Source of the DNA: Heterotrichella gracilis
Lineage: Eukaryota > Sar > Xanthophyceae > Tribonematales > Xanthonemataceae
Direction of reading: 5' to 3'
DNA length: 64,000 nucleotides
Assembly: GCA_032358255.1 (NCBI GenBank)
Contig: JAULBX010031924.1
Span: 62,001-126,000, forward strand
The number at the start of each line of letters is the position of its first letter. The stretch's first letter is position 1. Position numbers and translations under genes: made by a program. The notes under the pieces were generated by a model, which was given only the letters and a program-made list of their open reading frames with translations, was not told the origin of the DNA and made no database searches. This document shows positions 755 through 63,656 of this stretch, one piece after another.

Positions 755-3700
755 ATGAAGTGGACCCTCGCCACCGCCACTTCGCTCGAGCTGCCACCCG
801 CACCACGCGTGGGCCACATCGCCATCGCAGTGGACGCCTACTCAGTGTGGGGCGACGAGTTTGTGCTTGTGCATGGCGGGCTCAGCGATGAGAAGCTGGC
901 GCTGTCTGATGTGGTGGTGCTGCAGTGCGGGGCGGCGCAATGGCTCCGGCCGCAGGTAGGAGGAACAATTTTGATGAATTTTGATCATTCCTGGAAAAAA
1001 TGGAATTTTTTAATACAGATGACTGCGGATTTTAGTCAGAACTTCAAATATGCAATTTATTTGTGCACCAGCCAGACAGCCAGGTCAGCACCCTGGCCTA
1101 CATGCCTTCCGCCTGCCACTCCTGTGCTCGCACTGCATTAACCCCAAAAAATAAGCCTTGCCACAGGTTCGTGGCCGCCCGCCTGCACGCGCCTTCCATG
1201 CAGGCGCCTCCCTTGGTCAGCGCCTGTTTGTGTTTGGCGGGCATGTGTTTATGAAGGAGAAAAAGGGGCTGCACAAGTTCAACGACATGTGGTGCCTGGA
1301 CGTGGTGCGTAGTGGTGGTTGGGGGGGTCTAGGGTTTTGGGTGTGGAATTTAGGGTTTATGGTTTACGGTTGTGGAGCTGCACAAGTTCAATCACATGTG
1401 GTGCCTGGATGTGGTGCATGCGGTGGGGTGGCATGGGGTAGGGCAAGGGAACTGCGCCAGGGGATGCCGGCGGCTGTGGTTGCACATGGCAGAGGAGACG
1501 CGCATCGTGTTCAATCAAACGCACCATTTGGAGAGGATAACCCCGCCGGGTGCCAATAGTCAGGTGGCGAATGCTTGACTTCTGGGTAATTTTGAGAATG
1601 TAGCATTTGCATGGGCCAATGCTGCTGCAGCCACCCACCAATATGCCACCCTGCTTTGCCAAGTGCTTCCCACTCATGCAATGTGCAGTGGTGCAGTATA
1701 CCTATTGCTGCACATCGTACATGTGTATGTACGATGGATATGTGTGTGTGTGCATTGGCTCCTGGGGATTCAGTGGACGTCCCAATTAGGATCCCACCAT
1801 CCCTTCCCAATTTTCCAATCCCCGCTCCCCCCCTTGCAGTCCACATGGGAGTGGAGTGTGATCGACCTGGTGCCCGATTCCCCCCTGCCCGCCCCGCGCG
1901 ATTTCACCTCCCTTGTCGCGCTGGATGGGGACAGGTTGTTGCTGTTCGGAGGTCTGGACAGCAGCGATAGGAGGATGGATGACCTGTGGCTGTTTGATGT
2001 GGCAGGGTAGGTGCACGCATTGGTATGGGGTTGGGGTGGGTAGGGCTGTGCGTGCATGAGTGGTATCTGTGTACATTTTGTTGTGGATCTGTGGGTGTAT
2101 CTGCATGGGTGTTGATCTGAGGGCCAAAATACTTTGTCTCTGCGGCGTCCTCCCCTCCCCAGCATCATCCTGTATCCTCCCCATGCTCCGCCTCAAGGCA
2201 CAGCACCCACGCCACCACCCACCCACCCAAGAAATACCATTACTATGGCACCTATGTAAAACCCTATTTTCTCGCCCTGGCAGGCGCCGCTGGACTGAGC
2301 TCAAGCCCAGCGGCCCCAAGCCCAAGGCGCGCTACGGCCACACCCTAGCTAGGGTTGAGCAGCGCTGCCTGCTGTTTGGGGGCGAGACCAACTCTGGGGT
2401 CAGCAACGAGCTGTGGAGCCTGAGGGGCATGGGGGTGGGGCTGGATGCGGAGGAGGGGGGGGCGGCGTGGGTGCCTGTGGAGCTGCCAGGCGCCCTCCCA
2501 GCGCCTCGCAAGGGGCACGCGACAGGAGGTGAGTGGGAAACCCTAAACCCTCCCCGCAATGTATAGGAAACCGTGGAAACCCAAGGAGGCCCTACAGGCT
2601 GTGCAAGGGATGGAACAGGTTCGATTCCGGTGTTAGTGATCCTGGTGTCCATAGGTGGGCTTCCACCCTACACCCCACTCCAAACCCAAAACCCTACACA
2701 AAGGCGTGGCTTGTGCTGCGCCACCTTCCAGGAGCCTGACTGGTGCAGTATGTGAGGCCAACATCCACACGCATGCTGCCCAGCCCCGCCTCACGCCTCT
2801 TCCCTCCCCTCCTGCAGCCATCGGCCCCTTGGTGGTCATTGTGGGTGGCCACAGCTCCGAGCTAGGCTGGTTCAGGGCCAAGGTAGACACCTTCCTGAAC
2901 GACGTGTCGGTGCTGGAGCGCAGCGAAAACGTGTCCTGGCAGCGAGCGGACATCCCTCCCGAGGTGCCCCAGCCCCAACCCAGGGAGTACCACTCGCTGA
3001 CGGCTGTGGGGGGGTCGCGGCTGGTGCTGTTTGGAGGTGGGTGCTGGTGGCGGTTGTGCTGCATGCATGTAGCGGTGCTGGATTGGTGTCGGCTGCATGG
3101 GTGGCGTTTAGAAGGTAGCCTGTCATGGCTGCATTCAAAATGGAGCATGCTACAGCTGCTCTGGCTGTATTGTTAAGATGTAACTGACTACCGTAACTAC
3201 TTAAGCCTTTCAACACCTTTTGTGCGTCCTTCTAGGGGGCAATGGCAAGGTCATCTTTGGCGATGTGTGGTGGTTGGAGCCAGACTCCAAGAACAACCCC
3301 GGCCTGCTGTCCCCCATCCTGTCGCCCTCCCAAGACAACTCGCGCCCCTCCTCCCCCCCTGCCCCCAAGCCGGGCAAGTCCCAGCAATGGACCGCACCCG
3401 CAGCCTTCAGGCAGAGCCAGCTGTATCGGAAACTTGATGGCCTGCTGAGCCGCAGTGGAAGGAGCGCGCAACCAGCGGGTAGGGCATGCCGCTGCAACTC
3501 GACGTAAACCTTACGAGTAATGAGCAATGAGCAACATTAATGTTTTGGGTCTTCATACCCCCATTTTCGCAGCGATTTTTGATGAAAAGTGTGCACCAAA
3601 TATTTGGCAAATCTCCACACAGAAGTCCTCGACTTAACACAATCCCAACAGCATGTTCCAAATTCTCTGATTGCCGAATAAAGCCACATGGATGACCCGC

Positions 3701-4556
3701 ATGAATTTTTTGTTGCCGCCCCTGCAGGGTCTGCAGTCCAATCCCTGGGAGGCGCTGCCCGCCATGGCAGTGCGTCTTCCCTCCACCGCCCCACCCCGCT
3801 TGCCAGCCCAGCGCCACCCGCACTGCAGGAGCTGGGCAGAGAGTTGCTGGGCACAGGTGGGCAGCAGGGCGGTTGAGGCAAATAATTGCATCAGATTTCT
3901 TCAACTATGCTATGATTATTGCTAGTTCAAAAAAAAGATGCGCAACAGCTCGTTTTAAGCAGCTCGTCACGCTCTAAGCAGCTGTTACCTGTGTATCGCC
4001 TGTGAGGCTATTTCATTGGTTGATTTAAATGATGCAAAGTATTCATTTTGCATCTACAGAGTCCCAATTACTCAAAGGGCACGCGAATGTGTCCATCGCA
4101 CTAGGATATCTGTAGGCAAATACCGAAGTCCAGATCAGTAGCGTCCAGTTCCCGCAGTAGTGGAAATGTTGCTTGCCAATTGACCAAACTAAAGGACATT
4201 GTCACCGTTCAAAATCCCGGTGTCATGTTGCAGGGGGTGTGGGTGCTGGCAGCTACGAGGGCATGGGCGAGTCCCAAGGGGAGGGCGGTGCGGAAGCCGC
4301 CCGCGACTACCTGGCACTCGCTCCCGTGTCAGAGCTGAAGCTGATTCACCTGGACGTCATGCTGAGCGACTACCGCCAGATGGTGGATACCCAGCTGGGC
4401 AAGGTGCTGGGGGAGGGGGGGTACGAGGGGATGAAGCAGGGGAGGGCGGGTGGGGTGGGCAGGTTCTACCACTGTAGCACCCAGGAGCTGAGGCTGGGGG
4501 AGCTGGAGGCGCTTCAGCAGGAGTATGGGGCTCTGCGCCAAGCGCTGCAGCGGTGA
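755..4556 (+). CDS. Kelch-repeat protein with C-terminal coiled-coil-like tail
   Basis: An eight-exon model (755-955, 1167-1304, 1840-2006, 2284-2528, 2818-3036, 3236-3478, 3728-3856, 4234-4556) closes in frame to 554 residues. At least five kelch blades are visible, each with the family pattern of a hydrophobic strand ending in a double glycine (LVHGG, FVFGG, LLFGG, LLFGGE, VIVGGH, LVLFGG), followed downstream by a tryptophan strand (DMWCLDV, DLWLFDV, NELWSL). Such repeats fold as a beta-propeller used for protein binding. After the propeller come a Ser/Pro-rich linker (about residues 340-440) and a charged C-terminus rich in Leu, Glu and Gln (SELKLIHLDVMLSDYRQ to the stop) that looks like a short coiled coil. 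The layout resembles acyl-CoA-binding or Rab9-effector-like kelch proteins, but I see no ACB domain, so the partner is unknown. The start is the first ATG before the first blade. Exon 2 and the 3' end each have a decayed duplicate nearby. Confidence 0.82.
1269..1430 (+). repeat. Duplicated exon 2/intron junction of the kelch gene
   Basis: Bases 1269-1320, covering the end of exon 2 and the start of its intron, recur at 1378-1430 with few changes. Both copies could encode HKF(N)xMWCLDVV. The spacer (1328-1372) is a degenerate TTTAGGG tract. I take the first copy as the working exon because it is continuous with the FVFGG blade and its donor gives the right phase. Confidence 0.85.
2538..2555 (+). 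repeat. Telomere-like tract at a kelch intron donor
   Basis: Two CCCTAAA-type units begin 9 bases after the donor of exon 4. Further degenerate units lie near 2681-2700 in the same intron. Confidence 0.8.
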
Positions 4557-4735
4557 CTCACCTGGACGCCATGCTTGAGCGACTACCGCCAGCCTAGTAA
4601 AGACGCGGCTGGACGTGGTGCTCAGCATCTTGATAAATGGGGGAGGGGGGGGAGGGCATGAAGCAGGGGTGGGCGGGCGGGGTGGGCAGTGACTCAGGAG
4701 CTGTGGTTGGAGGCAATGCACCAGGCGCTATGCAC
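4344..4735 (+). repeat. Tandem duplication of the 3' end of the kelch gene
   Basis: The last coding stretch (from about 4344) is repeated from about 4556 with an offset near 213 bp. Matching landmarks include CACCTGGACGYCATGC, GCGACTACCGCCAG, a G-run, ATGAAGCAGGGG and CAGGAGCTG. The second copy has in-frame stops and indels and lies outside the coding sequence, so it is a decayed gene tail. Confidence 0.85.
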
Positions 4736-5855: not shown

Positions 5856-8800
5856 ATGTGGGGATTCTACGGAGCGGCGCTGGGAGTCATTGTCCTTGGT
5901 GTTGCCATACTGTGAGTCACTTTACACCACCAGTCAGCAAACTCCCCCACCTCGCGGGCTCTGACTGAGACCATGGCTTGCAGGCTTCGGCGGTATGCAG
6001 CGCCAAGTGTCTTGCTCCCAGTGTTGCTGGTTGTTGGAGTGGCTTGGATCACGTCCATGTCCATTGTGGCAATTGTCCCAATTGATATCTCAACAACGAT
6101 TGCTGCAGAGCCACATAGCTCTATTGGCGTACTATGGAGTTTATCTTACTGGTGAGACTTTGCAACAGGACCCTTTTCAACCCAGTTTGTTGCTGGCACC
6201 CCTTCCCCAGGTTTGACCTGTAGGCCCAGGTTGGGGGCTTGCCAGTCAAAAGAGCTGTTGTTGAGCCCGTTGTGCTGAACCATACAACCCGCCTGCAGGA
6301 CAACACAAGTCCTCACTTGGGTGTGCATACCGTTGCTGCAAGGCTATGCTGTAGCTGGCGACTTCACTGTATGGGGCAGGTGGGTGGCGCTTCCTGCTGG
6401 GTTAGGTCTTGACTAACAGGCCTTCTGGTGGAAGTTGGGAAGGACCAGGGGAAGGACATCGAGTTCCGTTTAAGAAGTGGTTGGTGGTGGCTGCCTGGCG
6501 ATTTCAGTATTGCACCAGGGGCACCACACCCATGCATGACAAGCTTGGTTTGTGTGCAGGCTGAGAAGCAGCCTGAAAGGTCAGGCGACGTTTCTTTCTA
6601 TCATCGGCACCCTGGGACTTATAGGTGAGTCCAACCTATCACCGATCAGTGCACGCCATCACCGCAAGCTCCTTTGATGCACTGAAGAACCTCGGCCTAA
6701 CGCCATGCCTCGTGACTTCAGGGCTAGCAATTCTTGTATTTCTGGGACACCTGGAGGCCACCAAAATTCCTGGTATCCTTATTTTTTTGTCCAACACTTA
6801 TGGTACGCCCTGGTTGCGCGTTCTTGTGCAGTGTTCTGTTGCCACTGGTGTTCCCCAGTCCCAAATCTCTATCCCTCATTGCTTGGTGCCACGCACACCG
6901 GCAGGCTCGCTTCACATCTGCTAGGGAGGGGGCATCCCTTTCAGCCACCGCATCACTTGCCAGCTGCTTGTGCCATGCCTTTGTGCACCATTGCACTGGT
7001 TCAGACTCATGCCATGCCATGCAGGTCTGGTTGGCGTCACCTTCCTCATGGGGTTTGGCCTCATCGACATCCCTAAAACCACATGGAAGAAGTCAAACCC
7101 TGAGAAGAGGTTCCTATGGCACTGCCACAGGCAAGTGTCCCATAAACGTTTCCTTTCTTTTCAACCAGCACCCCCACACTGGTTTAAACCCTGAACACCC
7201 AAGGGCCAAACACCCCAGTGCCAAAACCCTAAACCCTAAACATAACTGCACACTGCTTATATTGCCACCGCATTTCACAACTAATCGTTATGGTGGGGTG
7301 TGTCCAGGGTGGGTAGAGCAGCAGAAAAGCTTGAAGAGGCCGCAGCTGAGCTTCAAATTGTGATGACGGTCACCATGGCTACCTCACGCCCCATCCCCCG
7401 GCGCGACCCGCTGCGGCCATGCATGGACATCATACTGAAATACGCGGAGGACCACTCACCGCTCAAGCCAGCAGCAGTACCCGCGGATGCCAATGGCCAG
7501 GTGACCATCCTGCATCTTAGACGCATGGGGACGGGATGTGCATCCACCTCTATGTGTCGAGCCATGAATGGTATTGAGACATGCTGCCATGCATTGAGCT
7601 CCTACCCCATGCAATGTTGCGGAAGGTGCAACTGATGCCATTGATGTTGCTGCAACATGTAGAAGACAAGAGTGCATGTCATGGTCACTGATTTATCCCA
7701 TATGGGCTTCGCCTGTAGTTCATTCATCACATGCATTCCCATGCAATACAGCCATATCAGCAGTCAGTCCTGCACGCCAGTTCTGCAGCGCCAAGCTGTA
7801 CAGTCCTGGCGCGTGGGCCATGCATGTAATTGCAACTGTGACTGTGCCCCAGGTGGATGTTGAGCAGCTGACTGATGTTGAGCTTGACTATGGGCTGGAT
7901 GAGCGGGGGCTGGCGGCGCTGAGGCGGAGGCTGGCAGCGGCAATCAGCAACTTCAACTGTGAGTAGCCATTGGGGCCACTTGAGGCTGCAGAGTGCTGCA
8001 TTGCAAGTGTTATCCGCATACTCGTAGCTCTCAGCAAAAACATGGCTGGGGATGGCAGCAGGTTGCATGATTTGATTTGAGACATGATTCCAACGGCCTT
8101 GCCATGTGATTGCGCAAGCGCCAAATAGCACCTCACGCATAAGGCATGCGAGGCAAGTGTTAGCCCAACATACTGAAGCAACCCTAAATCCTACCCTTTC
8201 CATCAGCCTCTCCATGCTCAAGTAAACCGTAAACCCTAAACCCCTCCCCACACAGGCGCCAAGGTGGAGTACCAATCCTACATCAAGCGGGCCACGCACC
8301 TGGACGCCATCTGCAAGGCGCGCGCCACGCGCAACTTCTCCTCGCCGCCCGGCGGCACTGGCATGGGCGCTCGGGTGATGTGGGTATACCGCTGCCTGCT
8401 GCGCCCTTACCTGCTTAAGTTGATGTCCCTGGTGCTGTGGGTGGCGTCTGCAGCGGTAATTTGGAGCGAGGCTACCATTGGATCGGGGCGGGAGCCGGAT
8501 CTGTCGCCATTCTCGCTGGTACGCTGACTGGGAGTTGTGCACAATTGGGAGGGGTGTTGTTGAACTGTATACGGGGACTGTAAGCGCATGTTGGAGGGTG
8601 GGAGCTAGACCTGTCGCCATTCTCGCTGGTGCGCTGGCTGGGGTGGCTGGGGTTCGGGCACGATTGGGATGGGCATTGTTAAGCTCTTTTTTTGGGGGGG
8701 GGGATAAGCGCGCGCTGGGGGGAAGGTTGCCTGCATGAGTGGTCAGCTTTTGGTTAACTGTTGAACGTGGTAAGGCTGCGTACCTTTCTATATATTTTTT

Positions 8801-38500: not shown

Positions 38501-41182
38501 TGCGCGTTGCGCAGCCGCTCCCTGGGGTTCAGGGTTTAGGGTTCAGGCGGCAGGGGATGGGCAGGGGTCTGGTGGGGGGTAGAGTGCGTTGAAAAAAGAG
38601 AGACCAGTCCCGCTTCCGAAGAAAACCACTTCAAGGTGGGTGGAAGGCAGGGGGTGGGGTGGGGGGTGGCAGGTTGAGGGCGGCGCAGGGATCGGTGGAC
38701 GGCATTGCAACAGTCTAGGGCCCCGCAGGTGGGCAACACCTGGGGTGAAAGTGGCAGGAGTAATGCATTTCTGGGATGCCCCTCACGCACAGTGGCGCCG
38801 CCGGCCACCAGACCTACACCCTGAACCCTAAGCGAGGGCGAATGCACGGCGTACCGGAGTGCGCGGCCGTGGTAGGGCCCCAGCGCCGCTGCGGGTGCCG
38901 CTGGCTTGGCCCTGACGGCAGCTGCCACGGTCACCACACCGCCTGGCGCCCCAGCTTGCGGCTCAGGATCCCCCTCGGTTGCTGTTGCTGGTGCTGCTGC
39001 CGCTGGTGGCGCTGGTGGGGGTGCTGGTGGGGGGGCCTTGTCAGTGCGCGGCTCGGCTGGTGAGGGTGCGGGTGCGGGTGGAGGGGGGGCCGGCGGCGCG
39101 GGTGGTGCGATAGCGGCGCGGGGTTTGAGCACCGGCGCGGGTGTGGTCCGCACAGGCTTCTTGTCGGACCGCTCGTCGTAGCGCTGCAGGCAGTGGAGTG
39201 GGGTCAGCCTAAACCCTAAACCCAAACCCTCAACCCCAAACCCTACTATTCATCATAGCGCTCTGGGGTTGGGGTCAGCCAAGGCATGCGATGTAGGGCA
39301 GGCCTGCTCTATGTGGTAGACTGGGTGAGCTTCCGCAGCAGGTAATTAAGGAGCATGGCTGCTGCGACGTGCATGTGCAGCTGCAGCCTCCAACTACCCA
39401 GGGGCAATGCCTCCGCCACAACACACCCGCCAAGGAGTAAACCCGCTTTGGTGGTGCAACAGCCACTCATCTACACACTCTCACCGCCGCTTTGCCCACA
39501 GCGCAAGGGGGATGCAAAGCAGGCAGCACAACATGATCCCACAGCCAAGCTACCCCACGCACAACTCGCCCTAAACCCTAAAACCACGCACGATTGCCGC
39601 ATTCTTGCTCAGCTTCTTGTTCTCCCCTGGCGCTGCCTTCTTGGCCTTAACCCCCTTGCCCTTATCCCCGGGACCCTCCTGACCCCCTTCCCCCTCCCTG
39701 TTGTGCTCAGGCGCCAGCTGGAGCGGCAGGCCCCCACCCAGCGGCCCCATGGGGTGTGGATGCTGTGGCTGGCGTTGCTGTGCCTCAGCCATTGTTGCTG
39801 CTGCTAGGGCTCGAGACTCCAGCTCCTCCACCGATATGGCGTGCACCGCCCGCGGAGGGTTCATGTGGGGGAAGGGAGGGGGCGGGGGTGCGCGGGGCAG
39901 GCTGTGGAAGTGGTCTGAGGGGGGAGGGGGCTGGGGCAGGTGGTGTGGTGGGCCGGGGGGCTGGCTGGGGAGGTGGTTGAGGGGATCTTGGGACCAGATG
40001 CTGTTGCCGCCTCCCCAGATACTGTTGGTACCTAGGGAGCCAATGAAACCTGTTTAGGTTTTAAGGTTTAGGGTTTAGGGTTGAAACGTGCTGTTGGTAC
40101 CTGGGGTGCAATTGAACCCCGGGTTGTCATATCCCCTACTATTTACGTCCGAGACCAAGATAAACACCTTAGCAAGGGACCCTGCCAGGGCCTACATTGT
40201 GAGGCAACGACAATGCACGCGGTTTTGGTAGGGAAGGTGGCGCGCCAACCCCCATTGCTCCACCACCGCATGCCAGTGCAATGCCGTCAATGTGCACCAC
40301 TTCAGCGTGCAATGCAATGCCTCTTTTATGCCAGATGAGTAGCCTCCCACACAGGCCAGTGCCGCATCAAGTTGTGGGGGGCCAGGTGCACTGCATGTTG
40401 ATCAGCATGCGTTTCCAGAGTATGTTTTGCAACCAATACAACACACCCCTAATGCATGCTTATGGCAACCCACCTCCCCATAGCGCGCTGCCTCCCCACG
40501 TCGGCCCAGCCGCGGGCGCCGTGTCATCCCACAGCGACCCTGCACCATCACCAGGTCCCGGTGCAGGCACAGCTTGGGGCTGGAAGCTGTGCATGCCTGG
40601 TGGGGGCTGGCGCTGCCCTTGCAGGTTTCCTTGGTGGGGGTTCCCGGGCCGCATGAAGGAGGGCATTCCAGGTGGCGGGCCTACTTGATGAGGCTCTCCA
40701 GGCTGCATGAAGGCGGGCATTCCAGGTGGGTGCGGTGGCAAGCCCAGGTTGGGGGGTGGGGGGTGCTGAGGAGGTGGGTGGTGGGGATGAGGCTGGGGAT
40801 GAGGCTGTTGCCAAGCACTCAAGCTGGGCTCTTGCAGCTGGAAGCCGCGATCAGGTGGAGGCATCGGAGGGCCTGGCGCATTGCCCATCATGCCCTGGCG
40901 ATGATGGTTGGTGCTCTGTAGGAGGGCCAGGAGGGATGCCCCATTGTTGGGCTGGGGCTTCTGAGGGAAGCCGTTGCCTTGAGCGAACAGGCCGTCGAGC
41001 GGAGATGGCTGGTTTGCTGGAGGAAACAGCGGGAAGTTGCTGCCCTGCTGCGGGTGGTGGGCGTGCTGGGTATTGGTGTTAGGGAATTGGCTGGGCTGCT
41101 GCTGCAACTGGTTGTTCAGCCCCAGGTTGAGGCCACCAAATGCACCCGCCACATCGCCAGGACCGTTGTTTGTGGCCCACAT
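35565..41182 (-). CDS. URT1: Terminal uridylyltransferase, URT1/TUT-like
   Basis: Eight exons (41182-40474, 40031-39592, 39183-38855, 38521-38254, 37887-37780, 37519-37248, 36926-36692, 35729-35565) close to 841 residues. The catalytic half has the non-canonical nucleotidyltransferase signature: FGSVATSINV then NNNDIDVCLELP (Asp568 and Asp570), the third metal ligand in DTGTKVDVTVNN (Asp627), VKHWAKRRQVNDS, and the PAP-associated region LVWAFFAYWAW to CIEDPFEVTHDLGRTVD. The histidine in EVTHDLGR (about His794) lies where Cid1 and human TUT enzymes have the His that selects UTP, so uridylation of RNA 3' ends is the likely reaction. The N-terminal 490 residues are disordered, rich in Gln, Pro, Gly and His, with repeated PPGMPxFM motifs (about 160-215) and repeated SIWGGG. 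Plant URT1 likewise has a long disordered N-terminus that contacts decapping factors. Telomere-like tracts sit beside several splice sites. Confidence 0.88.
38525..38546 (-). repeat. Telomere-like tract before a URT1-like acceptor
   Basis: In the sense direction a CCTGAACCCTAAACCCTGAA stretch runs almost into the exon 4 acceptor. A related TTAGGGTTCAGGG stretch lies near the exon 3 donor (about 38814-38833). Confidence 0.8.
39173..39280 (-). repeat. Duplicated exon 3 acceptor of the URT1-like gene around a telomere-like core
   Basis: The acceptor plus first exon bases (39173-39208) have a decayed copy at 39249-39280. Both share GGGGTCAGCC at one end and a TCRTMRTAGCGCT block at the other. 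Between them, 39209-39246 is a degenerate CCCTAAA array. A further unit pair lies at 39569-39585, next to the exon 2 donor. Confidence 0.82.
40022..40119 (-). repeat. Duplicated exon 2 acceptor of the URT1-like gene around a telomere-like core
   Basis: CTGTTGGTACCTAGGG... (40022-40050) recurs as CTGTTGGTACCTGGGG... (40091-40119), both ending in YAATKRAACC-like bases. The spacer 40052-40083 is made of TTTAGGG-type units. Confidence 0.88.
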
Positions 41183-41856: not shown

Positions 41857-44779
41857 ATGCGCCATCTTGCAAGGCGTATTGCCTTTTCAGGATCGCCGCA
41901 GTCCTCCAAACCGTGTATGGTGTGCAACCAGTTCGCCAAGAGACAACGGCATGTGACTAGGCAGGAAACCCGGGTTAGGGCAACCCCGCAGGATGACTCA
42001 CAACCCCAGTCCAAGTGAGTAGCAAGTGACCTGGCATACCCTTCAAGGCACCATTACACAATTACGCTCTCTTTGTGCACGCAAGCTCAACCCATTAGTC
42101 ACTACAGTACTGGGATCTGCAGTGTCTTCCTCACCTATCCCAGGCTACACATGGGCACCAAGGTCCTAGCTACCCCGCCAGCAACAACCCTTTGCAACCC
42201 TTGCAGGTTCTCCCAAGTGTCAGAGCTGCCCAACATCATACACAGTGACACGGTGTTCATAGACATCGATGCCCCCAAGGCTGCCACCGACACCAGCCCC
42301 CTGGCACTGGGTGGCAAGTTCAGGTGGGAATAAGAATAGTAACAATAATAATAACAAGTTCGAATAAGACAGGGGGACTCCCTCTAACAGGCCCTTGCAA
42401 CACAAGTCTTTTTGCCATGTGAGGTGCACTCTCAACCATAGTGGTTCAGCCAACTGGGGGGGGATGTCTCTGGGTTGCATGGGGAAGGGTGGGGAGGCTA
42501 ACCAGCCCTAGGGAGGCTCTTCACCACTAGTTGTGTCACCCGCCAGCACTTGCGCCTTGCTGCAGGTTGATCCCTGCCGATACCAGGAGGTGCTCCAAAA
42601 AAAACCATAAATTTCTTCATTTTTACCCAAATCAAATAAAGTCCCTCAGGCAGCAATGCGCCCTTCTTGCAGGTTGACCCCCGCCGAGGTCCAGGAGGTG
42701 CTCCAAGAAACTGGGTACAACGAGGACGAGCTGCTGCAGGCGCTGATACGGCCCGCCTCAACACTGGCTCGACCACCCATCTCCTCGTTCCACGTGGGCG
42801 CAGTGGGCCTGGGTGCTTCGGGAAGCTTGTGAGTGCACCGCCACTTCTTTCACATGTGCATGCTGAGCCACACTGCCTACATCAGACTTCTTCTGCGCCA
42901 TGACCAAAAATGAATAAAAATAATAGTAATAATATAAGAAACGGAATTGAATAACCTGCATGACTGTAGTGCACCGGTTGCAACCATTGAAAGCCATGCT
43001 CAGCTGCTCTGCAATCAGCTCCATGACCATTCTTCTCCTGTAGCGCACACCTCCCGCTGCGTGCGGAGCCTGCCTCTCACCAGCAGAATCCTAAAAATTA
43101 AACCCTAACCCTGACTGACTTTGCTGGCCTGTGCCAGGTATGTGGGCGTAAATTTGGAGTTTGCCCGCCTGCCGCTGTACAACAGCGTGCACGCAGAGCA
43201 GTTTCTGATTGTGAATGCGGTGCACCATGGGGAGAGCGCCATACGCAAGCTGGCGGTGTCGGCGGCGCCCTGCGGCCACTGCCGGCAGTTCTTCTGCGAA
43301 CTAGGGTGTGCGGTGCGTTCCCAAACCCTAAACACTGGACCCTGAACCTAATGGGATTTTTGGCGAGCTAGGGCGTGCAAGCGTTGCTAAATTCTGAACC
43401 TTTAACATCTTCTTGGCAAGCTGGGGTGCGGTGCATGCGAGGTGGATGCGTGGGTAAGGGACTTAGGTGCATGGGGGGTGCATGGGTGTGCGGTGAGTCA
43501 GTAGTGGATGCATGTGTGTAGGGATCAAGGCGTAGGCGGGGCGCATGGGCGTGGGATTACAAGCACAGAGCTTGATGCCACTGAATCATTTGTACGCACC
43601 CAAATGGCCAGCATGGGCTCAATCTTCCTGAGGATCCTTCAAACAACAAACCCAACTGGGGTATCGCAGGACGAGATGGAGATCGTGTTCAAGAACCGCA
43701 GCCACACCCTGGCGCAGATCCTGCCCGAGCGCTTCAAGCCCTCCGACCTGCTCCCAGACACCCAGCTGCAGCTGCTGCTGGAGCGACAGGACAACTCCAT
43801 GAACTTCACAGACGGGGTGTACCACCTGCTCCAGGCGCGGCAGGACGATTCCTGCTTCCAAAAGGCGGCGGATGACGCCATGCAGGAGGCCAGAGGGGTG
43901 GGTGGCGCTTTCTGGTGACAAGTCCCAAATGTGTCTGGTGCATGGCATGTGCACCTGCCCATCCATTGCTGCATATTGGCTTGATGTCATAAGTGACGGT
44001 AGAACAATGTAAAAGTTAAATGAAGAATGATGGCAATTATCGTCCATTGAATAATAGTAGTAAATAATAGTGATAAGGTGGGTTAACAAACAAAAAGTAC
44101 TAGAAGACCTTTGCAATCCCATAAATGATGCAAGATTGGCACAAAGGTATGACGACTCTGACATGTGGCTGTGTGGCTGCAGTCCTACGCGCCCTACAGC
44201 AGGTGTCCGGCAGGGGTGAGCATTATCCTTGCCAGCGGCGAGGTGTACAGCGGCGGCTACATTGAGAGTGCGGCCTACAACCCCTCCATCCCCCCGCTGC
44301 AAACCGCCATCATCGACGGCATCATCCAGGGCATGCCCACATACGCCGAGGTGCGCGGTGATCATGTATGCAATGTGCGCATCTGTGGGCAGTAGTGCGA
44401 ACCCTAACAGGTGTATCCAGTAAGATGCATGTGCTTGCCACGTACAACACTGCGTACACACAGGGCACTGTGCCGGACCACCCCCACCCCCAGCTTGCAT
44501 ACAGCATGAGGCTCAATGATCCGCTAGCCTGGCATGTCAATGTGCTTTGGCAAGCTTACCTCCTGAGGATATGCTTTGTTTGCTGCAATGGTTGGCCATG
44601 CTCCTGCCCCTTGAAAAGCCCTGAACCCTTTGAAAACCCTAGACCATGTGCAGGTGCGGGAGGTGGTGCTTGTGGAGCTTGAGGGCGCGCCTGTGCACCA
44701 TGCGCCGACCATGCGAGTCATCCTAGAGCAGATAGCGCCACACGCCCACCTCACGCTGCTCACGGCACTAAGGGAATAG
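41857..44779 (+). CDS. CDA: Cytidine deaminase, plant two-domain type
   Basis: Seven exons (41857-42014, 42207-42323, 42673-42828, 43138-43312, 43670-43897, 44183-44350, 44654-44779) close to 375 residues. The enzyme deaminates cytidine and deoxycytidine to uridine in pyrimidine salvage. The catalytic domain shows [20 protein letters not shown] (zinc His and catalytic Glu) and [11 protein letters not shown] (two zinc Cys). The C-terminal domain has [13 protein letters not shown] and [17 protein letters not shown], the inactive second repeat typical of plant and E. coli-like dimeric enzymes. About 90 extra residues precede the domain: an Arg/Ser/Gln-rich start that may be a targeting peptide, then an acidic linker. 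The start is the first ATG of exon 1; nothing decides it strictly. Introns 2 and 4 contain decayed copies of adjacent exon ends. Confidence 0.92.
42550..42714 (+). repeat. Duplicated exon 3 acceptor of the cytidine deaminase gene
   Basis: The acceptor with the first 40 exon bases (42659-42714) has an upstream decoy at 42550-42603, offset 109. It keeps TTGCTGCAGGTTGA and CCAGGAGGTGCTCCAA but is broken by an A-run. Confidence 0.9.
43298..43440 (+). repeat. Triplicated exon 4 donor region of the cytidine deaminase gene
   Basis: GCGAACTAGGGTGTGCGGTGCG is followed by two diverged copies at 43363-43386 and 43417-43440. A CCCAAACCCTAAA-type tract (43321-43350) lies between copies one and two. Confidence 0.75.
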
Positions 44780-48777: not shown

Positions 48778-51700
48778 ACTTGTGGGCCCTTCGTTGGAAA
48801 AGATTTATAATGCAGCAGCGGGCAGGAAGTATGTCAAACTGAGGCAGGACACCAAGGTAAGGGTGCAAGCCTCATGCTCTGCTCAATATGGTCACAGCAG
48901 TCTATGTTCAAGGTACCTTCACTTGTACACTGCCAACTTTGACTGGGCATTGTCACCAGCAACATGCGTATGACCATTTCAAAATTCAACACCACGGTCT
49001 TGACAACACATTCATCTGTGTTGCAGGACCTGATTGGAAAGCTGAATCAGCTGCTGCAGCCTGTAGTGCCACAGCAAGCTGCCCCTCCAGCAGGTAATAC
49101 TGTTGCTGCTGTTGTTGCGCCTCCAATTGTCAAGGGTTGAGCACCTGTTGGAGGTCTAAGCAGTCCTCGTTGCAGGGAACGCCTCACAACCGGTGTCACC
49201 TGTGGCTAAGGCTGGGGAAGATGCACCAGACATTGAGCAGGATGGCATCAACGAGGGGGGCGATGTAAGCGAAAACGGCGAGGAAGCGCCCAGCAATGGC
49301 GATGGGGTGGCACATGCCCCGGTTGCAGTGGACGCTCAGCCTGTTCAACCTGCTGTCACCCCACGGCGGGTGTCTATGTCAGCGTCTGCGGCACAAGGTG
49401 TGCACCACTGCCCAATTACTCTTGCAGAATGTCCGCCGCCAGCGCCACAGAACCTGTTGTGACACGCCCACATGTTTTTGCAGCTGTCTTGGACCTCTTG
49501 CGGGAAGCAATTGAGACGCGCAAGCCACAGCTGGTGGAGCTGTCGCTGGACTGCATCCAGAAGCTCATTGCCTACAAGCAAATACAGGGCCCGGTGTTGA
49601 ACATCAACCACCGGCGGGAGCAGACTGGCAAAGGTGGCAAGCGCTTGCCCGACGATGACGAGGAAACGGATGTCAATGCCGCAGACACACAGACACCTCA
49701 GGTAATTACTGCACAGCTGCGGGAAGTGTGGCAAGGGCTAGCAGACGCCTACTGAACAGCTGCCGTGGTGCTGTGGTGGTAACGGTGTGTGACATGTCTG
49801 CAGGCACAGGCATTGGAGCTGCTGTGCCGGTGCGATGACATCCCTGATGAGGGTGTCGAGCTCCAGGTCCTGAAAGGGCTCCTCACAGCAGTCACGTCTA
49901 CCACGATCTTGGTCCACAACCAAGCGCTGTTGCTGGTGCGTGTGAGCCCCCATCTGGTGAGTTGTTGCTTTTGCGGGTCCCAACAGCCAGTTGAGCGGTG
50001 CGGTGTTGCTGCAGGCTGTGCGGACGTGTTACAACATCTTCCTCATGACCCGGAGCGAGGTGAACCAAACCACAGCCAAGGCGTCGCTGACCCAAATGCT
50101 GAACGTGGTGTTCCAGCGCATGGAGGCAGGCTCGGAAACAGTGGTGGTGGCCCCGATAGTTGTCAGCGACATGCTTGGGTTGCCATCCACCGATGCGTCA
50201 ACACTGTCAGCATTCGTCCAGTCATTCTTGCTGGAGGTAAGCAAGGGGTAGTGTAGGTGGATGCAGGCTGCGGCATCCGCGCTGCAAACATGACATGTGC
50301 AGGGCTGGGTGCCTCAAGCTTGTGCAAGGGTGATTGCTAATCTGGCGTTCTTGCGAAAATGCCTGTAATTAATTAATTAATGACATGTGGCAACTTGTGG
50401 GCAGGTGGTCACCAGTGTCGATCCTTTCGCCACATCATATGTGGAGGACATCCAAGCGGGGCTTGACAACGCATTTGTGCATGAGAATGGTGCCGACTCT
50501 GGCGACGAGTCTGAGGACCCAGCTGCCAAGCAGCGGGCAAGGGCTGTGTCAATCGCCAGCCTGGCGCCACCGCTTGCGGGCGAGGGTACGTGCTTTAAAA
50601 AGCTTGAAATATAATATGAAGGAAATATCATATAAAGGCACTGATAAAGGAAGCATATATGTCCTTCAAGGCTGGCTGCACCCTCCCTTTGCAGCATTTA
50701 TTTGCATATTTAGCATGCAGCATGGTCCACGCATTGATGCATTACATTGGCATTGCCATGCAATTGTGCAGGGAGCCAGCCGGATCAGCCTCAGACTGCC
50801 ACTGGAGCCACCGCTGAGTCTGACAAGGAGGATACCGCCACCACGCTGCGCAAGGACGCCTTTTTGGTCTTCCGTGCGCTGTGCAAGCTGTCCACCCGCA
50901 CAGCGGACTCCAGCACGGGCAGCGATGCGACTGTCATCCGGGGCAAGGTACGCCATATGTACATGCATGGCATGAAATACAAGAGCATATAGGGGCCAAG
51001 TGACTTGTGAGTTGAAAAGGATGGCTTCCTGGGTTGGTGGCTGTGGACGGCAAGTTTTTTTGGGGGGACGATGGACATTTTTGGGGAGCAGAAAGACGAT
51101 GCATGCAATTGTAGATCACCATTTATGATGGTAGTGGTGTAATGCATGGCTGTGTGCTGCAGGTGCTGGCGCTGGAGTTGCTGAAAATCCTGCTGGAGAA
51201 CGCGGGACCAGCGTTCCACACCTCAGAGAAGTTTGCCTCTGCCATCAAGCAGTACTTGTGCTACAGCCTGCTGAAAAACGCATCGTCCTCAGTGCCCCAA
51301 GTCATGCGCCTCACTTGCTCGATCTTCCTCACCCTGCTCAACAAATTCCGGCACCAGCTGAAAGCGGAGATCAGTGTGTTCTACCCAATGATCTTCCTGC
51401 GCGCGATTGAGCCACCATCGGCACCACAAAAGCCTGCACCTGGAGGTAATACACAATTTATTTGAGACTCTAAGACATGCCTCATTTACATCGCATCATT
51501 AACATCGCACATCACCTGTGGGCATAGCCAAGCCTGCACTGCTTTGGAGTAAGTAGGCTGCGCCATTGGGGGATCAACTCCTCCTCAGCCCATGTGCAAG
51601 CTGTGTGGCATACGCCATGCGCCTTGTACTCCGTGCTCATACGTGGCGCGGCAGCTCACATGCCCTCCCTCCCGTCTCACTGCAGGCGGCCCGCCCCAGC

Positions 51701-54700: not shown

Positions 54701-57700
54701 CCGCCACAGACAGCGACACCATCCGGCCCATGCTGGACGTGGCCTGGGCCCCCATGCTGGGCGCATTCTCTGTGCTCTTTGAGGAGTACGAGGACCCCCA
54801 GGTACTGGAACTTTTTATTTTGCTGTTTAAAAGACAATTTGTGAATTTTTTCCTAAAATGGATGTTTTACTTACTCCCAACGGTCTTGCGAGCCCGGGTT
54901 GGCTCCCTGAATGTGATTGTCAAATAAATTTTGTAGTGTTGCAATCTTACTTTGTTCACTGTTTCATATTTGGACCCCCAGGTGACCACCCTGTGCCTGA
55001 CTGGCTTTGTCACCGCCATCCGCCTGACCTCGCTCATGGGCATGGGCATGTTCCGCAACACCTACGTCACCTCGCTGGCGCGCTTCACCATGCTGCACGC
55101 GCCCGCAAACATGCGCATGAAGAACGCGCGCGCCTTCAGGGCGCTGCTGCTGGTGGCGGAGATCAGCGGGAACCACCTACATGTGAGTAGCCGCAAGCAT
55201 GCATGCCTCTGGGCAGTGCGGTTGTGGCCGGGTAGTGGAAGCATGATGGGGTTGCTGAGACGCTTTCTGTCATGTACTCTTTTGCACATATCCATATCCA
55301 CAGCTACAACAGCAGCATCACTAGTCATAGTCTGCTGGGAAGCCTTGCAATGATGAAGGCTGCTTAGAATATATGACGGTGGATGAAATTCAAGCATGCT
55401 CATCAGTGCAGCATGCTTGAATTTCATTCACCGCAACAAAAAAGGGCAGGACGGGTTCACTTTCTCTCAATAGGCGCGTAGCACTTGGTCAGTGTGGCAC
55501 CACACTGAGGTGCCTGCTTGCCCCCCGCAGGACAACTGGCTTGAGGTGCTGCGCTGCGTGTCGCGCTTCGAGCTGCTGCAGCAGCTGCACAGTGGCCTGC
55601 CTGGGGACGCCTTCCTGTTTGCACCCGACAGGGAGGAGCTGCAGGAGAAGGGCAAGCGTAAGGGGATACTCAAGCTGGGTAAAGGTAAACAGGCTCGTTG
55701 AGTGGTTGCGGTGTGGTGTGGCGTTCAGCGCTGGGAGGGTGGGCTGTTTGAGAGTGTTATCTGCTTCAGTGGAAGCAACAATGCGCACCCTGTGATGGGC
55801 CCGAGGTCGCAACAGCCACATGTCATGCATGCTGGCCGATTCGCCGGGTTTTTGCCTTTGGTTTTATCAACTGCAGCAAACTACCCTTTTATTTTATGTT
55901 TCTGTCACACGCGCGTGTGTGGGAGGTGCGCGGCCTCTCAAACCTCTGAACCCTGTGCCCCCCAGGGAGCAGCAACGGGCGCGCAGAGGGCGAGCGGGAC
56001 GTGCTGCCGTCGCTGGGCGAGCCGGGCTTCTACCTGCAGCCGCGTGGCAAGGGCAAGGAGCACGACCACTTCCCCTCGCCGCCGCCCGAGGTGCTGAGCG
56101 AGATTGACTCCCAGGAGCTCAACCGCCTGTTTGTGCAGAGCGACAGGCTGGACAGCGAGGTGCGCATTCCTACTTCATTTTATTTTTGTTTAAACAGCTT
56201 TTGAAGCCAGGCGGGATGCCGGTACAATTACAATACAGTTGCATGCGTGCTCCAGAATGGATGCATCCATGCCGGTCATGCCGCCAGGCCAGGCGGACAT
56301 CAGCAGCGTTAATATGGGCAGGCAGCAGCACCAAACAGCAACACCAAGCAGCAGCGTTCAGTGCCTGACAATGCAGGCATTAGGCAAGGGGCGGTGCTCT
56401 TCAAGCCTTTGCCAGCTAATGGTGGCCTGCCAACTGCAAACATGGTGGCTGGTGCGCATATGATATCCTGACTGTTGCTGCGCATGCAGGCCATCGTTGA
56501 GTTTGTGCGCACGCTGTGCCAAGTGGCGGCTGAGGAGCTGAAGAGCCTGCAGTACCCGCGCGTGTACAGCCTGACCAAGATTGTGGAGATTGCACACTTC
56601 AACATGAGCCGCATCAGGTATGGGCCGGTCTGCGGGCGGTTTTTGGGCAAGGGATTAGGGTTGCATTTATTTTTTCCCTTCAATTATTGGTACATTTTAC
56701 TTTGGTAACATAATAATATCATTGAAAGCATTTGCAGTGAGCCGCTTGAAGCATGTGCACTGAGGGCACCGCGCTTCCACAATTGGGTACATTTCCACTT
56801 TCTTAGCATAATGGTGACATTTAAAGCATTTGCACTGAGGCGCTTTATGTCTTCCGCCTTTCAGGCTTGTGTGGAGCCGCATCTGGGCGGTGCTGTCGGA
56901 CTTTTTCGTGGAGGTGGGTTGCCACAAGAACCTGCAGGTGGCCATGTACAGCGTGGACAGCCTGCGCCAGCTGGCGATGAAGTTCCTGGAGCGGGACGAG
57001 CTGTCCAACTACACCTTCCAGAACGACTTCCTCAAGCCCTTTGTGGTGGTCATGCGCCAGTCCAAGTCGGTGGAGATCAGGGACCTCATCATCAGGTGCG
57101 TGGGATGCGAAAAAGTGATATAAAGAACTGAAATTGCGCAAGGAAGAACATAAAAGATAGGCAAACATAGTTGATTACAGTATATTACAGTTGATTATAT
57201 ATAAAAAGAAACGAATGTACAATAGCCCTCATGCACAGTAAGATTGGGTGTCAGAGCCAGATGGAATGAAATCAGCGAACATCAATTACAGCAAAGCAGC
57301 CGTGGCATGACCACAGTGCATTGCACGTGACCAAGCGTTCGCGCGGCCTTCACCACGCTCTATATTCAGCGCCAAGCAGCTGACGTGCATGTACCCCTTC
57401 CCGTGCGTGCAGGTCGGTGTCTCAGATGGTGCTGGCGCGCGTGGCCAACATCCAGTCGGGCTGGAAATCCATGTTCATGGTCTTCACCACTGCCGCCAAC
57501 GACGAAAGCCCCAACATCGTGCGCCTGGCGTTTGACACCATTGAGAAGATTGTGCGCCAGCACTTCAACCACATCACCGAGACCGAGACCACCATCTTCA
57601 CGGACTGCGTCAACTGCCTCATCGCCTTCACCAACAACCCGCACAGCCTGGACGTGTCGCTCAACGCGATCGCCTTTTTGGGATTCTGCGCAACCAAGCT

Positions 57701-60700
57701 GGCTGAGGGAGACATAGGTGCGGGTGGAAACTAATTGGGGCCGCAAGGGGTGCATTAGTATAATGTGCAAAACAGGCAAGAATTGTTCGCCTCAGGGCGT
57801 GGCCATTTGATCAACATCGGTAGTGTGAGACTGCATGAAGTTGTAGTCTGCTTCACTGGGCTGCCTATGGCACTGGGGAGAGGCCAGATCAGCAGACAAC
57901 CTTGCACAAGCGGCGCAATACAGGTCACCTGTCACAGTTCTCGTCATTTGCTGGTACAGTGCGATCAAGGTCTCCAATTGCGCATGGCGAACCGACCCCT
58001 GGTCCTGTGTGCTGTGCAGGGGATGTGGAGGAGCTGCCAGAGGGTGCTGCCGGGGAGATGCTGGCTGGGCGCTACCAGCTGCACATCAGGGCGTCAGGCA
58101 GCGAGGAGCTGGCGGAGACATCGGCGCGGGGCGAGGCCGAGGGGGGGGACCCTGACGCTAGCTCCACAGGGAGGGAGGAGGATGGGGGGTCGCCCAGCGC
58201 AGCAGTTGGGGGGGGCATCAGGTTCACCGACAAGGATGAGCACATGTACTTTTGGTTCCCGCTGCTGGCGGGGCTGTCGGAGCTCACCTTTGACCCACGG
58301 CCTGACATCAGGTGCGCAGGACGCTTAAGTGGAGATCGCCGCCTGACAGTACCTTGCGATGATGGCGCCAGATGTTGGCTTCATTTAGTGCCACCGTGGT
58401 CTCATGTCATCAGCAATCACATTTGGCCAGTGTAGCACATGACCTGGTCCCATAACTGCATGGTGCATTCCTGCATTTCTCAATTGCCACCCCCTGGTAG
58501 CGTTTTAGGCAAATTTAGTGGGGGCGTCACTTGCATGGTGCAACCCTGCATCCACGCGCTCACGCCAGGGTCCTTTGGTGCTGCAGGAAAGCCTCGTTGT
58601 CTGTCCTGTTCTTCACCCTGAAGGAGCACGGGCAGTCGTTTGAGCAGAAGTTCTGGATCCGCATCTTTGACTCGGTGCTGCTGCCCATCTTTGACCACGT
58701 GCGCGCCGAGGTGACCGACACAACCACATTCACCGATGACAAGCGCCGCGCGGAGGTGGACTCGTGGCTGTACGACACAGCCAAGCAGTGCCTGCAGGTA
58801 AGGGGTGGAGGGGCTGGGGGTGGGGGTTATAGCGCGAGACATGGTCATGAGTGCAAAAGCCATGCACATGTGGGGGGGCATTGGTGGATGGGTATGGAAG
58901 GAGAAGGAACTGCCATTGTGTGAGCCAATGACATGGGGTGGAAAGTAGCTGGCATGTGCACAGTGCGTTTGGTTTGCCTGGCGGTGGCGGCATGTGCCTG
59001 GCAGATGCGTGACCGACCCTAAACCCTGACCCACTGTGGTGCAGAACATGGTGGACGTGGTTGTCCAGTTCTACAGCATCATCAGCATGATGCTGCCGCG
59101 CATCCTTGACCTGCTGCTGGGGTTCATACGGCGCACGCACCAGAGCCTGGCGGCGGTGGGCGTGGCGGCGCTGGCGAGGCTGGTCAACGGGGCGGGGCCG
59201 CACTTCACGGAGCAGGTAGGGAAAATCTTCCTTGTGTCCTCTTTACCACAGGCAAGCACATTTCCCGGCCTTCAAGTCAGTATCATTCTTGCACAGCATA
59301 ACTCAACATTGGGCAGGAGGCATGTGCTCCTTTTTGCTCTCCTCTTGTTGACGACAGGTGGGTAAACTGCATCACTCAACCTGCATCACCTGTTGCTTGC
59401 CAGCGTAGAATCTTTTACCTTTCTTTTAATTTACTTGTTATTTCAATTATTTTACTTTTGTTCAGGTGTGGATGGATGTGATGGCCACCATGCAGACTGC
59501 TGTTGCGGACACGCTGCCAGACATAGTGGGCCTGGTCAACAAGGAGCAGGGGCCAGAGGCGCACACAGAGGAGGAGCCAGCCAGCCCCTCATCGGCGTCG
59601 GGGCAGGATGGGTCGGAGAGGGCATGGTCGCTGGCCTACGGGGCGGGCTCGCGGCGGCTGGCAGAGGTAGGGTTTGCAGGGTTTTGTTTACCCTTTAGTG
59701 CGCTGTGGTGGCGCCTGGGTCACCAACCCCTGCCTAAGCAGCAGCTGCTGCTGGGTTGTACATGTATGTAGTTAGATTTTATGTACGGGTAGTCACACAG
59801 GCAACCTGTCATTGTGCGGTTCCGTGCCTCTGTGAGCCCCTCCCTGGCTAGGCCTTGGCTAGGTACCTGTGTGGGTAGTTCAGCTGTCCATATGCATGTG
59901 GTGACGCCAACATTCCCTGGTGCGTGCGCAGGTGCGGTGCCGCGCCTCCGTGCAGCTGCTGCTTGTTCAGGCCTTTGGCGAGGTGTACACGCAGCACAAC
60001 CGGCGGCTGAGCGGGCAGGCCATGGCGCACATGCTGGACACGCTGGTCATGGTGGCCAACCACGCGCGCAGCATCAACTCGGACTTCAACCTCAGGCAGC
60101 TGCTGCTCATGACGCAGCTGAACGACATGGTGGGTAACGGAGCGGTGGCAGGGGGGGAAGGGTAGCATCTGCATGTGGCGCAGGCCAGTGGCATGATGTG
60201 CACTGTCAGTGGACGTGTGGACCACAAACACTCGCTCTCTCCACACACCATTTCTTCCTCCCACCACCTTGCCCTCTGCAGCAAAATCGCCCTTTGCATT
60301 CCATTTGCCTACGCTCCCTTGATCAAGCACCTCCCTTCCGCCCCAGGTTGCCGGGGACCGCAACCTCAAAACCCTGAACCCTAAACCCTGCACCCCTCCC
60401 CAGGTTGCCGAGGACCGCATGCTCCCCGACCCGCCCCTGCTCAAGCTCGAGGTCGAGGCCACCACCGCCTACCTGTCCATGCTGCAGCACCTCAACGCGC
60501 TGGGATCAGCAGACGTCAAGGGGCTGTGCGGGCTGGAGGAGCGCCTGGTGCAGCTGTGCATACAGAACCTGCAGCGCTTCGAGTCTGGCGGTGAGCGCGC
60601 GCGGGACGGAGGGCTGTGCTTGCATGAATGAAAATGAATTGCATTGATGAAAATAAGATGGCATTCATGAAAATGAATGCCTCAATTTGATGTAATGCCC

Positions 60701-61519: not shown

Positions 61520-62414
61520 CCAGCAGCCATGCAGCTTGGGGGCTGTGCGGGGAAGCGGGGAGGCTGTGAGGCGCTAGAGATGGCATTGTCAATGCTGCTG
61601 GAGGCGTGAGTAACACGAGCTGGCGCTGTTCAAATGGTTTTGCACCACAATACTGCAAGCTGCTGAGCACTGTGAACAGATAAATGTGAGTCTGGGTACT
61701 GTGGGTTGAAGGACCAGCTGTAACAGATTATTATTTCATCAAAAGCGGAGAAATTGGTGCAAACTATGAAGGCCGAATGATAACCATTCATCCCTTTGTT
61801 GGTAGACATCCGCTCCCAGGGAGCAGCGTACAACCAGGGCTTGAATCAGCGGTAATGTAACAGTTAGTTACTAGCAGGTTCAATTCCTAATCTTAAAAAG
61901 TAATCGAGTGTCAAATAAAGTGACAGTGTGGCGTTATTTGACACTCGTTTTACTGTGCTATGATAGATGCAGCCCAAAAAATGCGGAGAAATATCTACAA
62001 ACAGGAATGCACCAAATCACTACGTGTATGTTGCAGGTAAGACATAGCTATAGACACTAATAGCTGCTGCTGTTTACAAGCAGTGCCACTCAAGAGTGAG
62101 ATGTGATAGTAATACTATTGTGCGCTGAGACTGAAAATATTAAAACGCACACAGCGGTACTATGTTTAGTCAGCCTGTCCGATCCAGTCTGACTCTTCAT
62201 TTGGCTCTTGGAAAAACTCTCGATGTGATTTATAAATTTAATTACCTCTTTGAAGAAAGCTGAGACTGATTGGGACATGAGCGAGTACTAGCCTAGCACG
62301 GTCTAAGAGCCAATTGGACACAAGTGCAAGTACAGTTGTCCCAATGGGCCACGTGTTGAACATAAAATGCCAACCGTTGGCAAGTGTCTGATGCACAATG
62401 CAATCAGTGATGGG
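61520..62414. other. Convergent 3' flanks of BIG and the membrane protein gene
   Basis: No supported gene. TGTAA signals occur at 61719-61723 and 61856-61860 after the BIG stop. A long perfect inverted repeat lies at 61905-61947. Confidence 0.5.
61905..61947. repeat. Perfect 14-bp inverted repeat
   Basis: CGAGTGTCAAATAA (61905-61918) and its exact complement (61934-61947) flank a 15-base loop. It may be an RNA hairpin past the BIG 3' end, or the footprint of a small inverted-repeat element. Confidence 0.85.
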
Positions 62415-63656
62415 CTACAGATTCGTACCCATGCAGTGAACCCCATAGACGAAGCAAATCACCCAGAAAAAGAAGCGATCTGCTAGAATTCCTGCTTCAC
62501 TAGACTGCGGAAAATTGAAGACTTGGTCCAGGCCTCCCTTCCACACCACTGGAGCCAAGACTGCAATGTGGGCAATGGATATGAGGGGCAATGCAAAACC
62601 CAAATCTGGCAACCTCTTGCGATGTGCAAAGAAAGACTCCTTAGCAAAGAAGATCTTAGTGGCATGAGGATGAGCATTCCCTGCCCCAATGACCTGCCAC
62701 TCGAATGCCACCTGAACACTGACGTTGGTTGTGCCAAATGCACCGTTCAAAGAGCTAGCAGGGTACAAGATGCACAGCAACCCCGTTTGGACTGACATTA
62801 GGGCAACTAACCATCTCCATATGGTGTGAGACCAAGTCAAGGGCTGCAAAGCGGCGGGGGGCCCTGCAAGGGGGCATTCAATGAGTCAGATCTGAAAGGA
62901 CCTGTCCTATAATGCACAGCATAACTCAGCCAAACCTAACACCTAACCTTTGGTTGGCAATGCTGTGTGTATGCACGGGCTGGAGGTGAGTCGTGTATAC
63001 ATGCATGCAGGAGTATAGGCCAAATCCGAACCATGAACATGAGCGCTCCAGCAGAGCTGCGTGCCATGCCCCAGTGGGCTGAGAGGGTGCCACTCTGATA
63101 CTATCAGAAAAACATAGTTTGACCTATTAGGAGGAGCAAAATGTGACCTTAACAACGGGTGTTGGGGCGCTTGATGCCTATTCAATTCAAATCATCAGTG
63201 CATGCCTTGAACACCCCTCAGGCTGGCATTGATTTCAATGTGAAATGCATGTCCTCCCCGCCACTCTCCTGATCCCAACCGTTCAAGGGGTGACCCCTGG
63301 CCTTGATTGGAATGTGAAATGCATGACCTCCCTGCCACTCTCCTAATCCCACCTGTCACAGGGCCAGCTTTCCAACCCATGCCCGGGATGGTGAGGAGAC
63401 AGGCGCTTTGGACCACAAAGAGCGACCCAAACACAAGGAGTCCGAACAGCAGTCTTGCTGACCGCCAGGCTGTGGTCATGCCAATATTCCAAGCGTGCAG
63501 CTCAAGTGCCAGACCCCCGAAACCCAGGAGGTGGAGGTGCGCTCTCCACAGCACAGCTGCAGCATATCCATTGCGGCAATCATTCTGCGCGGTTGAAAAA
63601 AGTTACAAAATAATGTTAAGTTATAGTTTAACATTTGTAAGTCTTACTTTGACCAT
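62415..63656 (-). CDS. Small four-helix membrane protein of unknown function
   Basis: Three exons (63656-63648, 63584-63353, 62863-62415) close to 229 residues; the first exon is only nine bases (MVK). I do not recognise the family. Four hydrophobic segments are visible: about ARLLFGLLVFGSLFVVQSA, IWRWLVALMSVQTGLLCIL, FALPLISIAHIAVLAPVVW and RFFFWVICFVYGVHCMG. A longer polar loop between the second and third holds WQVIGAGNAHPH and a basic FFAHRKRLPDL. The gene converges on BIG. The start is the weakest part of the model: the tiny first exon has a good GTAAGA donor and a 63-base intron, but a longer 5' exon beyond the ATG cannot be excluded. Confidence 0.6.
63227..63370 (-). repeat. Duplicated exon 2 donor region of the membrane protein gene
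   Basis: About 68 bases at the exon 2 end and donor (63301-63368) have a second copy at 63227-63294, offset 74. Both share AATGTGAAATGCATG and GCCACTCTCCT blocks. Confidence 0.88.

Follow-up and report, generated by a model that had tools for sequence, protein, structure and literature searches.

Interstitial telomeric insertions of mammals are accompanied by a target duplication at 4.6% of loci in rodents, 16% in primates and 4.5% in the horse, according to passages of the two reports concerned (PMC2246262; PMC7215372). At breaks with complementary 3' tails in mammalian cells, small tandem duplications arise through CST acting with Pol alpha-primase, and the term telomerase is absent from the available main text of that study (PMC8355091). 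For Daphnia, a review passage (PMC3443670) cites direct repeats, attributed to the repair of staggered breaks, around 43% of the introns gained. Here, we describe local sequence duplications, many with TTTAGGG-type telomere-like repeats between the two copies and many lying across predicted exon–intron junctions, in the genome of the xanthophycean alga Heterotrichella gracilis. The starting point was the window, a stretch of 64,000 nucleotides (positions 62001-126000 of contig C899, JAULBX010031924.1) in a 68.5-Mb assembly of 903 contigs. We regard it as real that these duplications stand well above chance wherever sampled, and they probably reflect a new form of telomere-assisted break repair whose visible outcome is intron growth. 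The finding brings together three topics that are usually treated separately: how introns grow, how small tandem duplications arise, and how telomerase acts at internal breaks.

Duplications and the telomere-like repeats between their copies

An unbiased sample of 264 kb was assembled from the window and 20 stretches of 10 kb, taken at round coordinates on six contigs and chosen blind to their content. Telomere-like bases were masked before a diagonal scan of offsets 20-420, with offsets of 1500-1900 serving as a control. The scan returned 91 non-overlapping duplications, 18 of which had overlapping copies and were left out; the remaining 73 with separate copies compare with only 3 in the far-offset control. 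As the window accounts for 13 of the 73 and the other 200 kb for 60, the window is therefore ordinary within the sample. Extrapolation from these 264 kb on seven contigs gives ~19,000 local duplications, ~7,000 of them telomere-filled. An earlier note on the window had proposed that such duplications exceed chance, which these counts bear out, and that their offsets cluster near 105-113 and at 213, which they do not: the offsets in the diagonal scan spread from 21 to 399, most of them at ~50-135. A previous BLAST-based scan gave no offsets below 83, and it is suspected that BLAST pruned the self-alignments.

The gaps between the copies were counted if at least 10 bases long and called telomere-like if they held at least 9 telomere-like bases. 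This was the case for 28 of 69 duplications, whereas 3000 trials with locally shifted gaps gave 7.5 on average and never more than 19. The telomere-like share was 14/27 at copy identities of at least 0.9, followed by 6/16, 5/16 and 3/10 with growing divergence. The BLAST-based scan concurs, with telomere-like gaps in 23 of 47 cases against 6.1 expected. The outcome that the earlier note had named as refuting its view, junction copies no commoner than other short tandem duplications and unlinked to telomere-like units, was looked for over the whole 264 kb, and the opposite was found.

The same association appears when the search starts from the arrays. The assembly holds 834 matches to three consecutive TTTAGGG units, and the first 100 of these places in listing order yielded 67 loci, chosen with their flanks ignored. 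At 34 of the 67 loci, the two flanks match each other better than the 99% level of a null built by pairing flanks from different loci (0.7 expected), and 32 exceed the 99.9% level. Random positions in the 20 stretches reached a similar flank-alignment threshold in 61 of 1200 cases. In the 32 best array loci the copies measure 21-77 bases, and 14 of these loci have no more than 6 bases between array and copy on either side. Flanking copies were also present at 5 of the 9 arrays of at least two exact units in the 264-kb sample. Six loci (L046, L056, L064, L066, L067 and L094) hold at least three tandem units of a unique stretch plus a telomere array, as if a duplicated unit had re-expanded.

Replication slippage or unequal crossing-over could in principle make the duplications, the telomere-like units then being accidental. 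Expansion of this kind would explain the loci with three or more units, and 45 of the 73 duplications either lack a telomere-like gap or have a gap shorter than 10 bases. However, the telomere-like gaps are nearly four times as frequent as expected and commonest between the most similar copies, and copies flank arrays ~10 times as often as they flank random positions, so that we regard slippage as a disfavoured and improbable source of these structures.

Array orientation and the proposed repair of staggered breaks

TTTAGGG is the repeat of the contig ends in this assembly. Eleven contigs carry arrays of at least eight exact units; in six of these contigs the array lies in the first 200 bases and in telomere orientation, and in the other five it is on the plus strand. 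Internally, the head-to-head arrangement TTTAGGG-N(0-30)-CCCTAAA was counted 263 times and the tail-to-tail arrangement 89 times, against 26 and 20 for reversed-pattern controls; a single array can enter these counts in more than one register. The head-to-head excess is what the joining of two telomerase-extended ends predicts. Among 20 selected head-to-head loci, the score of the flanking copies exceeded 13.5 in 8, most clearly in L083, where 31-base copies with one mismatch enclose the array. In a set of 108 arrays, 77% are directly preceded by G. Among these arrays the first unit is often preceded by CTG (13) or ATG (9), and TTCA is common after the last exact unit (11/108). As for the enzymes, the RNA-binding domain of telomerase (TERT) is encoded on contig C626 and Ku domains are encoded on contigs C771 and C380.

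These duplications and fillers are probably explained by staggered breaks, telomerase extension with fill-in, and end joining. Here, we infer the staggered break, the enzyme that makes the filler, the fill-in by CST and the order of events. A staggered break would leave two single-stranded tails over the same stretch T (~20-150 bases), and telomerase would extend one 3' tail, or both, by a few TTTAGGG units. Fill-in of the tails would follow, for which CST with Pol alpha-primase, as at telomeres, is the simplest candidate, and Ku-dependent end joining would link them. The product would read A-T-filler-T-B, with the filler as TTTAGGG, as CCCTAAA, or as both head-to-head. Where T lies over an exon–intron junction, one copy could still splice while the other would become an unselected intron copy. 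The spare copy and the filler would decay, and the intron would be longer by T plus filler. The earlier note had suggested that breaks are repaired while telomere-like DNA is synthesised or captured, and this idea is well supported by the arrays found between copies and by the head-to-head excess.

Several observations nevertheless weigh against this explanation. The tail-to-tail arrangement is also above its control, although this surplus may come from clustered events. At least one base in repeat register at the array end was found for 6 of 46 arrays on the left and 8 of 46 on the right, and the polarity expected of telomerase priming was not seen at the ends of these 46 arrays. Stn1 and CTC1_2 were unmatched in the genome, in searches that were silent in control genomes too. 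Further, the paired feature is not shown by 41 of the 69 gaps and 33 of the 67 array loci, and degenerate fillers lie next to some copies that are still 93-98% alike (e.g., L011:5928-6141). Finally, an outward orientation was seen at 26 of 34 array-centred loci and was absent in the unbiased sample (15/34 and 11/23); a rule placing TTTAGGG after donors and CCCTAAA before acceptors was dropped on these numbers.

Some of these points would suit a different origin of the filler, in which pre-existing telomeric fragments or circles are taken up when staggered breaks are end-joined, with no action of telomerase there. Capture would account for array ends without polarity and for fillers that are degenerate or mixed with other sequence in some loci. 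One captured fragment would, however, give one orientation and two would give random orientations, yet the head-to-head arrangement prevails over tail-to-tail, which makes capture an unlikely source of most fillers. A retroelement (a long interspersed element, LINE, or a Penelope-like element) with a telomeric tail that inserts with long target duplications would leave variable-length flanks resembling those observed. This reading is disfavoured and very improbable: the loci share no common body, with near-array similarity to another locus in only 1 of 88 loci, the ends of T carry no motif, and head-to-head arrays do not fit such an insertion. The missing motif and the missing common body also speak for staggered breaks. 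Nicks directed by CpG were also considered and rejected, as the ends of T show no clear enrichment of CG.

For the study of telomerase extension at staggered breaks, numerous events, from recent to old, within a single small genome offer a natural series from which telomerase action at breaks could be dated and dissected.

Exon–intron junctions in the sample and in the window

The results on junctions rest on home-made gene models from a finder trained on sample sequence, which gave 396 exons and 386 introns over the 264 kb, with a median exon of 162 and a median intron of 280. The finder fuses adjacent genes and produced five models in the window. To keep decayed copies from being read as exons, gene prediction was run anew for every duplication after masking the gap and one of the two copies. 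After masking, 31 of the 73 duplications span a junction, 22 are intronic or intergenic, and 20 are called exonic throughout and are ambiguous. Among the 53 tolerated cases, the 31 junction-spanning ones compare with 13.5% of random tolerated placements, labelled with ordinary models (p ~5e-14); with all ambiguous cases counted against, 31/73 still gives p ~2e-9. At identities of at least 0.9, 12 of 22 duplications span a junction. Exon bases outnumber intron bases in the duplicated piece in 27 of these 31 cases, and reading by eye of seven donor-side pairs with a similarity of at least 91% showed the piece to end 3-13 bases beyond the donor GT. Arrays in the unbiased sample lie within 60 nt of a junction in 32 of 54 cases, with 26% expected. 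Proximity was weak for 34 intronic array loci, 9 of which lie within 50 nt (22% expected) and 15 within 80 nt (32% expected).

Survival alone was rejected as an explanation of the excess at junctions: it would spread the duplications evenly along introns, and among random tolerated placements a junction is spanned far less often. Part of the excess may come from ascertainment, since a copy under selection stays recognisable for longer, but the excess is still present at identities of at least 0.9. Breaks may also be commoner in exons, survivors being left only where the overhang includes a junction. The excess at exon edges is the strangest part of the finding and depends on the home-made models. 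If true, and not an effect of survival or detection, it suggests, surprisingly, that breaks fall mainly in exons.

The earlier note had also raised a lineage-specific mode of intron growth from duplicated AGGT sites. The growth of existing introns is supported by the data, whereas the gain of introns is not. In the latter scenario a duplicated AG|GT would serve as both donor and acceptor of a new intron, and many T copies do contain a complete donor site. When each intron's own donor was compared with its own acceptor for 343 predicted introns, however, 12 reached the 99% level (3.5 expected) and only 2 were in register, both of them weak, so that new introns from such sites are very improbable here. 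The strongest donor–acceptor matches seem to be decayed copies that the models mistook for exons.

Taken further, the telomere machinery (telomerase and fill-in) could be a major mender of staggered breaks in gene bodies of this lineage, with thousands of telomere-filled duplications, most active at exon edges and continually supplying intron growth and spare splice sites; we put this forward tentatively, as somewhat short of an even chance. If this reading is true, the spare splice sites could feed the evolution of new splicing. The events themselves offer a testable route to intron lengthening and decoy splice sites.

In the window, twelve pairs of copies had been listed in the earlier note. 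Tested against random places of equal offset (1500 trials per pair), ten of these are real at p<0.02 (1269, 4344, 8490, 9058, 40022, 42550, 51928, 56681, 60341 and 63227). The pair at 43298 is marginal (54/1500 random places as good) and that at 39173 is at chance level (416/1500). The diagonal scan independently finds the same ten and adds three unlisted pairs, at 29899, 38116 and 39879. The claim that the listed pairs sit at exon–intron junctions holds in part. The home-made models place 8 of the 12 on a junction, among them the weak pairs 39173 and 43298. A junction is touched by 6 of the ten real pairs (donors at 1265, 8486, 9058 and 51923; acceptors at 42551 and 60341, the latter identified by eye), but three are inside introns (40022, 56689 and 63223) and the one at 4331 has no clear relation to an exon. 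Stricter re-prediction with one copy masked leaves the pairs at 1265 and 42583 ambiguous. Similarly, telomere-like bases occur in all five gaps for which they had been claimed, though two of these belong to the weak pairs. Table 1 collects the coordinates.

Table 1. Paired copies in the window, with strand, similarity, relation to predicted exons and introns, and content of the gap
Copies (positions)	Strand	Similarity	Exon–intron relation	Gap and telomere-like bases
1265-1318 / 1374-1426	+	87%	Around Kelch-gene donor	Gap 55; 42 telomere-like bases
4331-4456 / 4541-4683	+	73%	Exon relation unclear	Gap 84; 0 telomere-like bases
8486-8532 / 8596-8642	+	87%	Copy 1 over predicted donor (33 exon + 14 intron bases)	
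9058-9196 / 9271-9410	+	82%	Copy 1 over LMBR1-exon donor, copy 2 intronic	Gap 74; 0 telomere-like bases
Unlisted: 38116-38148 / 38333-38365	-	88%	Copies touch poly(A)-polymerase-like exon; offset 217	Gap without telomere-like bases
39173..39262	-		Listed pair (13 bases) at chance level	Array 39208-39245 in between, real
40022-40050 / 40091-40119	-	83%	Intron-internal	Gap 40; 34 telomere-like bases
42551-42602 / 42657-42710	+	83%	Copy 2 over predicted acceptor at 42673	
43296..43385 (24 bases)	+	79%	Marginal pair; predicted donor	17 telomere-like bases
51923-51942 / 52027-52046	+	95%	Predicted donor	Gap 84; 0 telomere-like bases
56679-56747 / 56775-56845	+	77%	Intron-internal	
60338-60362 / 60395-60419	+	92%	Acceptor	Gap 32; 24 CCCTAAA-type bases
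63223-63289 / 63297-63363	+	84%	Inside predicted intron	Gap 7

The clean case is the pair 9058/9271, in which copy 1 lies in the LMBR1-matching exon and copy 2 in the next intron, where the frame is lost. A 901-base query around 9058 returned only its self-match in the genome, with neither a second allele nor a paralog. Pieces of three window proteins had Pfam matches, to Kelch, LMBR1 and a poly(A)-polymerase-like family, and a search of the window against Rfam at gathering thresholds gave no match.

Other repeats of the window are of a different kind. The strongest direct repeat, at 13355-14137, is a 225-base unit present 3.3 times in a predicted minus-strand gene and is unrelated to the duplications above; the gene presumably encodes a polyprotein of the PsbY type. 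Imperfect palindromes of 32-57 bases lie at 54416-54447, 55377-55433 and 61902-61950. A dispersed repeat of ~40-95 bases, 76-88% alike to L101:334-428, has copies at 38017-38111, 31494-31534, 7716-7774 and 50323-50380. The DNA examined also includes what we take to be a plant-type cytidine deaminase.

Comparison with known systems

Among the open-licence papers listed by the searches, covered through titles and the starts of abstracts, no description of telomere-filled duplications at splice junctions was found, which does not show that none exists. The telomere passages of the Haematococcus genome paper and of a 2025 paper on splice-site direct repeats are not of this kind.

The closest relatives of the arrays are the mammalian interstitial telomeric insertions (PMC2246262; PMC7215372), which are likewise short arrays away from chromosome ends. 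In the passages of those reports, target duplications are ascribed to staggered breaks and telomerase is proposed as the source, as it is here. Duplication is far more frequent in H. gracilis (34/67 loci) than in mammals (4.5-16%). Mammalian insertions show in-register bases at the break, whereas no clear sign of them was seen here (6/46 left, 8/46 right). Further, the recurrent copies of splice junctions seen here go unmentioned in the mammalian-insertion passages of both papers. With respect to introns, the Daphnia repeats concern intron gain (as reviewed in part of PMC3443670), while the duplications described here look like growth of existing introns at one end, with 2 weak in-register cases among 343.

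The duplications made by CST and Pol alpha-primase (PMC8355091) offer a further likeness. As far as that paper's available text describes them, these too arise where the overhang of a staggered break is duplicated, depend on Ku for joining and measure tens of bases. Their copies are adjacent, whereas in H. gracilis telomeric filler separates the copies in 28 of 69 cases. As CST with Pol alpha-primase is also the telomere fill-in complex, telomerase and CST acting at the same tails would, in our own reasoning, give the structure observed here.

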